This document shows positions 55,312 to 60,100 of a stretch of 64,000 bases of DNA, piece after piece. The DNA is from Nitrospira sp. GTDB lineage: Bacteria > Nitrospirota > Nitrospiria > Nitrospirales > Nitrospiraceae. The stretch spans positions 2,556,800 through 2,620,799 of the forward strand of contig CP126122.1 in the NCBI GenBank assembly GCA_030123565.1, written 5' to 3'. The notes below the pieces were generated by a model, which ran no database searches, had not been told where the DNA came from, and was given only the letters and a program-made list of their open reading frames with translations. The first letter of the stretch is position 1; every line of letters starts with the position of its first letter. A program made the position numbers and the translations under genes.

Positions 55312-57018
55312 TCAGGATACCTCACCGCTCATGCGAAGGGCCTTGATGCGCAACTGCATCCGATCGTAGCCGTTCCAATGGTTGCGCTCGGGACTAAAGG
55401 CCAAATCGACCGGCCGGCCGACCTTGAGCCCCAACTCTTCAAACGAGCCCATGCGAAACCCGATACTGTCAAAGATAAATGACCGCCCTTGCCGGACACG
55501 GAGCTTGAGATGCTTCTCACCGACCACCCGCGCATCCACCACATCGAGGCCGCGGACCGCCAGCGTCGGTTCCGGGTTGCCTGCTCCGAAGGGATGTAAG
55601 GATTCGAGTTCTTGGATCAAGTTGAAATTGACCTCCGTGAGGTTCACCTCGGCATCGACATGCAAGGTCGGCATGGAGGGGGAGACGCCGGTCCACTGTG
55701 CAACCACTTCGCAGAATCGCCGGCGGAACTCCTCCAACCGCGTTTCCTTGATCGTCAATCCGGCAGCGCTCGGATGGCCGCCATAGGCCTCCAGCAGATC
55801 CCGGCACTCGGATAGCCCCTGATAGAGATCAAAACCCTCCACCGTCCGAGCCGATCCCTTGCCGATCCCTTGACCGTCCACGGCAATCACGATGCTCGGC
55901 CGATGGAACCGATCCACCAACCTGGCCGCGACAATCCCGACCACGCCTAGGTGCCAATCGTGCGAGCCCAACACGATCGCGGCAGCCGGTTCATCCTGAG
56001 CCAAGGATGCAACCGCCTCGCTGATGATCCCTTCTTCGATCTGCTGGCGCTGCCGGTTGAGCTGCTCCAATTGTTCGGCAATCTGCATGGCCTCCACATC
56101 GGATTCCGTCGTCAGCAACCGCACACAGGCCATCGCGTGGTCCAACCGGCCCGCGGCATTCAGCCGGGGACCCAGGCGGAAGCCGACGGTGTCGCTCGTA
56201 CAGGCCTTCGTGATGCCGGCCGCCTGTTTCAGGGCGCGAATGCCGCAACGCGAGCCGCGCGTGATCTGCGTGAGCCCTTCTCGAACCAAGATGCGGTTCT
56301 CATCCTGAAGCGGTACGATGTCGGCCACCGTCGCCAAGGCCACGAGGTCCAGGCAGGATTCCGGATCCACATCGCCCGATCCATACCGCTGTCGGTAGGC
56401 CGACACTACCTTATAGGCCAGTCCGGCAGAGCAAAGCCCCTTGAACGGATAAATCGCGCCTCGCCGGTGGGGATTGAGCACGGCGAGGGCCGGAGGCATT
56501 GTGGCGTCGGTCTGGTGGTGATCCGTCACGACGACATCCATGCCGAGCTGCCCGGCGAGTGCAATCTCGCGATGCGAGGTCGTACCGCAGTCGGAAGTCA
56601 CCAACAACGTGATGCCCTCCTCTGCCAGACGCCGGATCGCCCCTTCGTTCAAGCCGTATCCTTCTCGAACCCGGTGCGGAATATACCCGCAGCCATTCCC
56701 CCCGAGACCTTGATAGAACGACAGGTAGAGACTTGTGGCCGACACCCCATCGACATCATAATCGCCATAGAAACAGACCTGCTCCTGCCGAGAGAGGGCC
56801 AGATGCAACCGCTCTACGGCCAGCTCCATATCGGGAATCAAGAATGGATCATGCAGACCTCCCTGAGCCCCGGACATCCATCGACTCGCCTCATCGGCGG
56901 TGGTCACACCGCGCGCAAGTAACACTGATGCCGTCACAGGCGAGATCGACAATATCCGCGACAGATTATTCTGCAATGCAACATCCGACGGTCGAAATAC
57001 CCACAGTTTTTCCTGCAT
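55312..57018 (-). CDS. recJ: single-stranded-DNA-specific exonuclease RecJ
   Basis: 568 residues, the usual RecJ length. DHH phosphoesterase motifs are intact: CFYGDYDVDGVSATS (motif I), VTSDCGTTSH (motif II) and VVVTDHHQTD (DHH motif), then the DHHA1 domain with GSHDWHLGVVGIVAARLVDR and GGHPSAAGLTI. A C-terminal OB-like domain ends the protein. The 5'-3' exonuclease acts in recombination and mismatch repair. It is the first gene of the recJ-spoT(-mscS) set; the 220 nt before it carry the pup terminator but no gene. Confidence 0.96.
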   Translation of the reverse strand: MQEKLWVFRPSDVALQNNLSRILSISPVTASVLLARGVTTADEASRWMSGAQGGLHDPFLIPDMELAVERLHLALSRQEQVCFYGDYDVDGVSATSLYLSFYQGLGGNGCGYIPHRVREGYGLNEGAIRRLAEEGITLLVTSDCGTTSHREIALAGQLGMDVVVTDHHQTDATMPPALAVLNPHRRGAIYPFKGLCSAGLAYKVVSAYRQRYGSGDVDPESCLDLVALATVADIVPLQDENRILVREGLTQITRGSRCGIRALKQAAGITKACTSDTVGFRLGPRLNAAGRLDHAMACVRLLTTESDVEAMQIAEQLEQLNRQRQQIEEGIISEAVASLAQDEPAAAIVLGSHDWHLGVVGIVAARLVDRFHRPSIVIAVDGQGIGKGSARTVEGFDLYQGLSECRDLLEAYGGHPSAAGLTIKETRLEEFRRRFCEVVAQWTGVSPSMPTLHVDAEVNLTEVNFNLIQELESLHPFGAGNPEPTLAVRGLDVVDARVVGEKHLKLRVRQGRSFIFDSIGFRMGSFEELGLKVGRPVDLAFSPERNHWNGYDRMQLRIKALRMSGEVS

Positions 57019-57225
57019 GGATCCTCTATCTCTCTCCCTGACTCTCTGCGAAATATTCAGAAGTGACTGAGAAGTAAAGGGAATGGTATCGACTCACCCC
57101 ATCTTTGTCAAACGGGGCGCCGTCCCGACAGGAGTGAGACGAACGGCACGGGAGCAATGGGCCCTGTGGTTGACGGACAAACCTCAGGCGAAAGGGGAGG
57201 AGATCGGAACGGAGCACACAATTAA

Positions 57226-57255
57226 AAAAGGGAGGGGACTATTCCCCTCCCTTTT
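57226..57255 (-). terminator. Intrinsic terminator overlapping the last codons of pup
   Basis: On the minus strand AAAAGGGAGGGGA pairs perfectly (13 bp) with TCCCCTCCCTTTT, followed by further T. The 5' arm consists of the last Pup codons (K-G-G-E), and the stop codon TAG forms the loop. Confidence 0.88.
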
Positions 57256-57436
57256 GCACGTAGTTCTTCACAAACTCTTCGGCATTTTTTTCGAGGACAT
57301 CGTCGATTTCATCGACCAGCTTGTCGATGTCCTCTTTCATTTTCTTCCCGGACTCGACGACTTTCGGGTTCGGCTTGACCTCTTCCTTGCTGTGGGATTC
57401 TTTCCTGGATTCCGGTCTCCTCTCCTGTTTCTCCAT
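57239..57436 (-). CDS. pup: prokaryotic ubiquitin-like protein Pup
   Basis: 65 residues. The charged, disordered N-terminal half is followed by the Pup signature LVDEIDDVLEKNAEEFVKNY and the C-terminus VQKGGE. Pup is attached through its C-terminal Glu to lysines of target proteins by PafA, marking them for the Mpa-proteasome. Mycobacterial Pup ends GGQ and needs Dop deamidation; this one already ends GGE and is ready for ligation. The ATG at 57436 has GGAGGTG six bases upstream; a TTG 18 bases earlier is unlikely. PafA, Dop and proteasome genes are not in the window. Confidence 0.93.
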   Translation of the reverse strand: MEKQERRPESRKESHSKEEVKPNPKVVESGKKMKEDIDKLVDEIDDVLEKNAEEFVKNYVQKGGE

Positions 57437-57602
57437 CGGAGCACCTCCAGTCAATCAGGAACTGTTACGGCCAACCGTCTCTCGTCACATTACCCTAGGG
57501 CCGCCGAACGCGTCAAGCCGACGGGCGAAACGCGGACCGTCGTTCGTATGTGGTTATTCGACCGGAGCGCTTCGGGATACGCGTCACGCTTTACGCCTTC
57601 CA

Positions 57603-59660
57603 CTATTTGACAATCAGCGAAACGATCAGCAGCGCTACGATATTGATGACCTTGATCATCGGGTTGATCGCCGGACCGGCCGTATCTTTATAGGGGTCGC
57701 CGACCGTATCGCCGGTCACCGCCGCCTTGTGGGTGTCGGTACCCTTCAAGCCCTGCTCCTCAATGTATTTCTTGGCGTTATCCCAGGCGCCGCCGCCGCT
57801 GGTCATCGAGATCGCGACGAACAGTCCCGTCACGATGCTGCCGACGAGCACGCCGCCGAGCGCTTGGGGACCGAGGATCGCACCGACCAGAATCGGCGAG
57901 GCCACGGGAATCAGCCCCGGGATCATCATCTTTTGAATCGCCGCCTGTGTCACGATATCCACACAGGTGCCATATTCAGGTTTGCCGGTGCCTTCCATGA
58001 TGCCCTTGATCGTCCGGAACTGCCGTCGGACCTCTTCTACGACCAGACCAGCCGCCTCTCCCACCGCTTTCATGCAGAGCGCGCCGAAAATGAACGGCAA
58101 CATCCCGCCCAGGAACAGCCCCACCAGGACCTTGGGATCGGAAAGGTCGAACGCGGCCAGAGCGGGATTGTATACCGCCACCTCGCGTGAGAACTCGGCG
58201 AACAGCACGACGGCCGCCAAGGCTGCAGACCCGATGGCATACCCCTTGGTCACCGCCTTCGTCGTGTTGCCGACCGCGTCGAGCGGGTCGGTGATGTTCC
58301 GCACTTCGCTGCCGAGATGCGACATTTCCGCGATGCCTCCCGCATTGTCGGTGATCGGCCCGAAGGCATCGATCGCCACGACAATCCCGGCCATCGACAG
58401 CATGGATACCGCCGCCACCGCTACGCCATACAGGCCGCCGGAGGCTGCGCCGCCACAGATCCAATAACTCGTGAGAATCGCCCCCCCGATCACCACCACC
58501 GGCCAGGCGGTGGACTGCATGCCGACCGCCAATCCGGCTATGATGTTCGTGGCGTGACCGGTCTCACTGGCCTTGGCAATGGCCTTCACCGGCGCGAAAC
58601 TCTTGGACGTATAATAGTCGGTAATGAAGACCATCGCCAGCGTGACGACAAGCCCCATCAAGGCTGCGATGTAATAGCTGATGCCGCTCACGCCGCCCAC
58701 GTCCTCCATGACAGTGGTCGTGATGGGGAAAAACGCCACCGCCGCAATGCCGCCGGCCACGAACAGTCCCTTGTACAGGGCCGGCATGATTTCTCCACCC
58801 GGACTGACCTTCACGAACAGGATCCCGATGATAGTCGCAAAGATCGTCACTCCACCGAGGACCAGTGGATAGAGAATCGGCGCGCTGGCACCCTTGAACA
58901 TCGTAAAGGCCAACACCATGGCCGCCACCGTCGTCACCGCGTAAGTTTCAAACAGGTCTGCCGCCATCCCGGCGCAGTCACCGACATTGTCACCCACATT
59001 GTCCGCGATGACCGCCGGGTTGCGCGGATCGTCTTCCGGAATGCCTACCTCGACCTTCCCGACGAGGTCCGCGCCGACATCCGCCGCCTTCGTGTAGATC
59101 CCGCCGCCGACCCGCGCAAACACCGAAATCAAACTGCCGCCAAAGCCCAGGCTCAGCAAGGCATGGATCGCCTTCTCCTGCCCGGCGAATTGGGAGGCCA
59201 GCGTATAAAAACTCGTAATGGCCAACAGGCCCAACCCGATCAGCAACAGCCCCGTCACAGCGCCCCCGCGGAAGGCCACGGTCAAGGCCGCATTCATCCC
59301 ATCATGTGCCGCCTGTGCCGTGCGGACGTTGGCCCGGACCGCGATGATCATGCCGACATAGCCGGCGATGGCCGATGCCCCCGCCCCGACCAGAAAGCCA
59401 ACCGCTGTCAACAACCCGAACTTGTCCGAGACCGCCCCACCCCCCCACAACAATACGAACAGAACTGCCGCCACCATGCCGACCGTGCGGTACTGGCGAT
59501 TCATATAGGCTGCGGCGCCTTCTTGAATGGCCTTGGCGATTTCCTGCATTTTGGCATTACCGGCATTGAGCTTGAACACCCACATGGCGAGATACAGGCC
59601 GTAGGCAATCCCGGCCGCCGCTGCAATCAACGCAAACGTAATGATCGCTGAGTCACTCAC
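57603..59660 (-). CDS. hppA: membrane-bound proton-translocating pyrophosphatase
   Basis: 685 residues from a GTG at 59660 preceded by ACAGGAGGAGAACACT; the ATG upstream in frame (59747) adds an unlikely Ser-rich leader. About 16 spans. Substrate-binding acidic motifs are visible: GVGGG-type [20 protein letters not shown], then [20 protein letters not shown] and [16 protein letters not shown]. The segment [11 protein letters not shown] has Lys where K+-dependent enzymes have Ala, so this is the K+-independent H+-pumping class. It couples pyrophosphate hydrolysis to proton export, an energy-saving device useful for a nitrite oxidiser. Confidence 0.96.
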
Positions 59661-60100
59661 AGTGTTCTCCTCCTGTCGGCAGAATGATGAAACTGAACCT
59701 CCAGCTGAACTGCCAGAAAACGGCCCTGAGTTGACACGAACCCTCACATCGATCGACGGTTGTCACAGAATGTCCCCTGGCCTCGTTTCCTCGTGAGCAG
59801 ATGAGACAGCGGGAAACCGCAATGGGGATCGACAACAGACGCGGATGCTAACTATCTGAAAAGTGGCGCCATTCTATAGGGGAGGCCGAAGCGGATCAAG
59901 AAAAAATCTGGAGGCAGACTGGATCAGCCTCCCTCCTTGGGACGGTAATGGAAAAGAATACTCGTTGGGCGCGCGCAATAGAAGGATCGACCAGGCCAGC
60001 CTCCCTTCATCGATGAGGAAAATGGATGGAGAATGATGAGGGTTGTTGGAGAACCATTCCTGATAATCGGTGCAAGGGACAGCGCCGCGCAGTTCAAGGT
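59661..60100. other. Divergent intergenic region, no gene seen
   Basis: Lies between the hppA start (minus) and the promoter of the small plus-strand gene. Contains two near-copies of CAGCCTCCCT (around 59925 and 59998). No coding frame with a ribosome site, tRNA or clear promoter for hppA could be assigned. Confidence 0.4.

Follow-up and report, generated by a model that had tools for sequence, protein, structure and literature searches.

A predicted intrinsic terminator lying partly within the coding sequence of a free-standing pup gene in Nitrospira

At the 3′ end of pup in this Nitrospira genome, the last codons of the gene take part in a hairpin that looks like a transcription terminator, and the question raised by the locus is what this hairpin does at the end of a gene that stands apart from its usual partners. 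The gene (57239..57436, minus strand) was found in a window of 64,000 nucleotides, which is the whole stretch of DNA analysed, and codes for a protein of 65 amino acids with the C-terminus QKGGE, followed by the stop codon TAG. In profile searches, the product matched the Pfam family of Pup (PF05639; 3.3e-21; 76.4 bits, cut-off 27) and NCBIfam TIGR03687 (3.9e-17; 62 bits, cut-off 41.45), and its end conforms to the GG[EQ] C-terminus expected of Pup. Judged by its sequence, the window protein is an ordinary Pup. Pups ending in GGE do not require deamidation by Dop, although Dop would still take Pup off its targets; as the tail ends in Glu, deamidation is unnecessary here, and on this point we agree with an earlier note on the same DNA. 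A Glu end, rather than Gln, was common to 27/27 pups of the genus, 96/104 of other Nitrospiraceae, 11/15 of a sister family and 30/37 of those located within proteasome operons.

The final codons, read on the minus strand, are CAA AAG GGA GGG GAA TAG, followed by TCCCCTCCCTTTTTT. They give rise to the hairpin AAAAGGGAGGGGA-ATAG-TCCCCTCCCTTTT (57255-57226, minus strand), with 13 of 13 positions paired and a loop of four nucleotides, followed by TT. The earlier note had placed the KGGE codons in the 5′ arm and the TAG in the loop. This was correct overall and can be refined: according to sequence, fold and genus alignment, the 5′ arm (57243..57255) starts at the second base of the Gln codon, continues through Lys-Gly-Gly and ends at the second base of the Glu codon; the third base of Glu and the stop codon form the loop (57239..57242). 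The 3′ arm (57226..57238) is noncoding, and its TTTT together with the next TT makes up a U-tract (57224..57229). A 61-nt stretch containing the hairpin had a minimum free energy of -24.5 kcal/mol (z = -4.4), and none of 200 dinucleotide shuffles was as stable. The hairpin thus shows the G/C-rich stem, short loop and U-tract of an intrinsic terminator. An Rfam search of the window found no family. The hairpin could also be ruled out as a dispersed repeat, since the 30-mer, with up to 3 mismatches allowed, occurs at a single place in the 4.62-Mb, one-contig genome.

Concerning how unusual this arrangement is, 0.90 Mb of the genome were scanned with a stricter threshold, which yielded 28 terminator-like hairpins at 738 gene ends (3/521 in an internal control). 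Only two of the 28, that of pup and a weaker one, overlapped a coding sequence. Other sites mostly began 7-105 nt past the stop codon, so that the overlap at pup is exceptional. The weaker case, also followed by U residues, is at the gene end of L297:1283-3556.

The stem was then looked for in other genomes, its absence from close relatives being, according to the earlier note, what would refute the idea. It was not absent. Pup was found in 27 of the 29 Nitrospira genomes searched, and every one of these full-length, readable genes ends in QKGGE and has the stem formed by the same codons, with no mismatch in 24/27 and 13 pairs in 18/27. The other two genomes (G002 and G011) gave no match to pup, an empty answer that proves little; because neither recJ nor the locus was matched in them, an assembly gap is likelier than a true loss of pup, which is disfavoured. 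The stems were evaluated by a stem score (at least 24 being strong) and by dinucleotide shuffles of the downstream sequence of each gene (p ≤ 0.05). A first measure, the count of minimum-free-energy pairs between the coding end and downstream sequence, had been dropped because shuffles were nearly equal. With loops of up to 10 nt, all 27 genus pups had a stem overlapping the coding sequence at p ≤ 0.05, with scores of at least 24 for all but one. As controls, such scores were reached by 0/25 of the hppA 3′ ends of the same loci (loops of up to 10 nt) and by 0/37 of the pups within proteasome operons. When loops of up to 32 nt were allowed, 22/27 genus pups passed p ≤ 0.05 (20/27 in a 60-shuffle run). 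It has to be considered that pairing with the purine-rich arm was also fairly good for shuffled downstream sequence (mean 21.5 for shuffles versus 30.2), which is explained by the pyrimidine-rich spacer; part of the signal is therefore one of composition, and the single-genome p values are to be tempered.

Outside the genus, again with loops of up to 32 nt, strong stems (at least 24) were seen in 39/104 pups of other Nitrospiraceae and 6/15 of the sister family; hence, the hairpin is not universal after relocation of the gene. The tight 4-nt loop is typical of Nitrospira, and related arrangements in other genera have long or nested loops. In another genus of Nitrospiraceae, one locus (L105) has a separate palindrome right at the pup stop codon, GAGTGACTCG...CGAGTCACTC, apparently a different solution for the 3′ end. 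A link between the GGE end and the hairpin, implied in the earlier note, did not hold, since GGE also ends the 30 of 37 in-operon pups mentioned above, which lack the hairpin. In one run, moreover, two of 12 Gln-ending pups of the relocated families (L036 and L164) had a stem overlapping the coding sequence at p ≤ 0.05, and L036 missed this level when the test was rerun.

The proposal that protein and RNA functions constrain the same bases was borne out by hairpin conservation, covariation at the Lys wobble position and Gly codon bias. Among the 27 genus pups, the wobble base of the Lys codon and its partner in the 3′ arm were G-C in 16, A-T in 6, G-T in 4 and G-A in one (p 0.0009 in a Fisher test of the 26 standard pairs, relatedness ignored). 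On a tree of recJ plus hppA DNA (FastTree), two changes of the coding-side base were placed, each in a clade of its own; T stands opposite in both clades with A, and the G-T states adjoin one of them. The passage from G-C through G-U to A-U is the classic compensatory route, followed here by way of synonymous changes. Conservation accompanied by compensatory change, as looked for in an intrinsic terminator, was therefore found. As for glycine, the codons GGC or GGT were used at the first Gly of the tail in 0/27 genus pups versus 25/37 in-operon pups, and no GGY codon was present at either Gly of the genus pups. In a sample of the genome, GGC was the commonest Gly codon (0.43), followed by GGG (0.26), GGA (0.19) and GGT (0.12); this background, derived with a gene caller, was preferred to an earlier one based on greedy ORFs, which included antisense ORFs. 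In all, and particularly because the Lys wobble pair changed together twice from G-C to A-T, there is good evidence in these comparisons for selection acting on RNA pairing through the KGGE codons.

The genomic site of pup was compared in a synteny set of 183 pups, formed by 27 from the genus, 104 from other Nitrospiraceae, 15 from the sister family and 37 from other families of the phylum. Two contig-end fragments (L034 and L160), two rows for the same places as others (L084 and L085, equal to L086 and L087) and two second copies in other families (G207:C135 and G235:C89) were left out. In the window, pup does not adjoin dop or prcB, as in a dop-pup-prcB operon. Its neighbours, on the same strand, are what we take, from their sequences, to be hppA, for a proton-pumping pyrophosphatase (upstream; 57603..59747, with a possible start at 59660), and recJ, for a single-stranded-DNA exonuclease (downstream; 55312..57018). 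All the Nitrospiraceae pups (131/131) adjoin hppA and/or recJ, 120 of them both, and so do 14/15 of the sister family, the remaining locus showing neither. In every other sampled family of the phylum, pup adjoins dop and/or prcB (37/37). Both neighbours were seen in 25/27 genus loci, 95/104 of other Nitrospiraceae and 6/15 of the sister family, recJ or hppA being unseen at some loci because the contig or the retrieved stretch ends early. This distribution between families indicates that pup probably left the proteasome operon in the common ancestor of Nitrospiraceae and the sister family, one move being the simplest reading.

Two promoter-like blocks, functional by inference, were recognized as footprints in the genus. 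One is upstream of pup (57487..57516, minus strand; TTGACG, 18 nt, TAATGT) and occurs as a TTGACG...TAAGGT-like block in 26 aligned genus loci, with a -10 element matching the sigma-70 consensus poorly. The other lies between the hairpin and recJ (57083..57111, minus strand; TTGACA, 17 nt, TACCAT) and is present in 27 aligned loci. The distance from the pup stop codon to the recJ start is 192-220 nt in the genus. Conservation extends over the 3′ arm of the hairpin and is lost in the stretch between the arm and the promoter-like site of recJ; one of the genus alignments of the locus took in 19/27 loci.

With respect to the partner genes, the earlier note had stated that no pafA, dop or proteasome genes adjoin pup and had suggested locating them in the genome. 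None was matched in the window by tblastn with both genomic sets, but a full Pup-type set lies 127 kb away, in addition to a UBact-type one. Four genes of the Pup-ligase family were found, in two clusters, and the same number occurs in 23/29 genus genomes. The Pup-type set (C1:2480416-2486772) has the order mpa-dop-prcB-prcA-pafA and lacks pup; mpa, dop, pafA and prcB are above the NCBIfam equivalog cut-offs, and prcA was named by its position and sequence only. The second set (C1:80047-86931) contains mpa, dop, UBact (NF033388, 4.4e-22), prcB, prcA and pafA, with mpa, dop, pafA and prcB all below those cut-offs. The PafA, Dop, Mpa and 20S genes that a Pup needs are thus in the genome, so that the window Pup is not an orphan; presumably, it is served by the mpa-dop-prcB-prcA-pafA set. 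Mpa of the UBact set (operon at L007:7048-13932) ends in NQII and that of the Pup-type set (L006:15004-16773) in GHYL, which suggests different docking to the 20S core. The Pup-type operon has, about 1.4 kb from its pafA, a CRISPR-Cas locus (L006:2793-8968; G000:C1:2472792-2478967) with an array of ten units of about 73 nt, Cas4 (Cas4_II), Cas2, Cas1 and a 1039-aa Cas9-like protein weakly matching known Cas9 models (7.6e-13).

Taking these data together, it is very probable that the hairpin is an intrinsic (Rho-independent) terminator of the free-standing pup, located partly within the coding sequence. Given the promoter-like blocks before both pup and recJ, it most likely ends a one-gene transcript. 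After leaving the dop-pup-prcB operon and settling between hppA and recJ, as synteny suggests, a single-gene pup would have required a 3′ end of its own. The KGGE codons, rich in A and G, would already have provided a suitable 5′ arm, and a short stretch rich in C and T right behind the stop codon would have sufficed as 3′ arm to complete the terminator. Selection then kept the Lys and Gly wobble bases in pairing forms, as shown by the synonymous covariation and the codon bias. RNA polymerase would release some 10-20 nt past the coding sequence, separating pup from recJ, which would use its own conserved promoter-like site. A terminator overlapping a coding sequence could work because the ORF is short (195 nt), and, extrapolating from E. 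coli, the polymerase may arrive at the hairpin ahead of the leading ribosome. A point against is that, in E. coli, the coupled ribosome represses a terminator placed closely behind a stop codon (PMC4824070); the first ribosome is cited there as catching the polymerase within about 100-200 nt, and on these figures, the pup ORF may just escape. A review mentions the use of short distances between stop codon and terminator as an indicator of uncoupled transcription (PMC7858274).

The same geometry admits another interpretation. A ribosome on the last codons would occupy the 5′ arm together with the stop codon of the loop; strong translation of pup would thus lead to read-through into recJ and weak translation to termination. 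The hairpin indeed forces competition with the ribosome, and its overlap with the stop codon is both exceptional in the genome sample and conserved; furthermore, PMC4824070 reports that termination in E. coli fell from about 90% to below 10% when the terminator was preceded by a stop codon at 5 bp, a repression that was gone once translation was removed. Against such a translation-sensing switch, a conserved promoter-like site belongs to recJ itself, there is no evident reason to co-regulate this gene with pup, and the short ORF may escape ribosome repression, considering the catch-up distance given in the same paper. We regard the switch as unlikely. An equally doubtful proposal combines two claims: that the KGGE bases were recruited as a terminator arm more than once, in line with the different loop types of Nitrospira and other genera, and that the terminator, because its loop holds the stop codon, responds to pup translation, with heavily translated messages running into recJ.

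Other explanations do without termination or without function. The hairpin could be a 3′-end stabiliser or processing element, which would account for the three or four genus members (depending on the count; L009, L018 and L031 among the loci with weak U tails) that retain the G/C stem with a weak U-tract. Since at least five U residues occur right at the arm in 23/27 genus pups, and most members retain the A-U section of the stem, from which the U-tract derives, this seems quite improbable. Chance pairing of GGR codons with a pyrimidine-rich spacer, inherited among close relatives without selection, would agree with the good pairing of shuffles of the same composition. It was already disfavoured by the conservation throughout the genus with decay right past the 3′ arm, the two independent compensatory changes, the lack of GGY at both Gly codons and the result with the hppA 3′ ends, and it can be considered very improbable.

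Under the terminator reading, one stretch of bases would carry two codes in a clean and conserved manner, one for the reactive tail of the Pup tag and one for a signal in the RNA, and compensatory evolution is visible through synonymous changes. Nitrospiraceae keep pup apart from the other genes of the Pup-proteasome system, usually with a second, UBact-type set, and with pup standing apart, the supply of Pup could be controlled independently. The pup end also offers a natural test of a terminator in a coding end when ribosomes follow RNA polymerase. Nitrospirae Pups with a G[EQ] end (PMC2588565) and Nitrospirae pupylation genes as such (PMC2588565, PMC3511204, PMC7947786) are already published. 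In the titles and abstract openings searched, no pup terminator, hppA-pup-recJ site or pair of proteasome sets in one Nitrospira was described. The components are known; the overlap of hairpin and coding sequence and the relocation of pup were not described in the literature searched.

Compared with known systems, the window Pup resembles its family (PF05639/TIGR03687) in length, GG[EQ] tail and scores far above the cut-offs. It differs in gene position, as it is outside the proteasome operon, between hppA and recJ, while in most actinobacteria pup is directly upstream of prcB (PMC3511204). UBact (NF033388) shares with it the genome and the possession of its own mpa, dop, prcB, prcA and pafA; unlike Pup, it ends in RTGE, is inside its operon and belongs to a different NCBIfam equivalog. 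The hairpin is like intrinsic terminators in its G/C-rich stem, 4-nt loop and U-tract, and unlike the usual ones in that its 5′ arm lies entirely within the coding sequence and its loop takes in the stop codon. Where 3′ ends have been mapped in other bacteria, their medians are 37-91 nt past the coding sequence (PMC12207403), versus the roughly 10-20 nt expected for pup. Finally, in ribosome-mediated attenuation, e.g., at the pyrBI leader (mentioned in PMC4824070), as possibly at pup, the position of the ribosome could decide whether the hairpin forms; however, attenuation of the pyrBI type acts at a leader peptide, while the pup hairpin ends a real gene.
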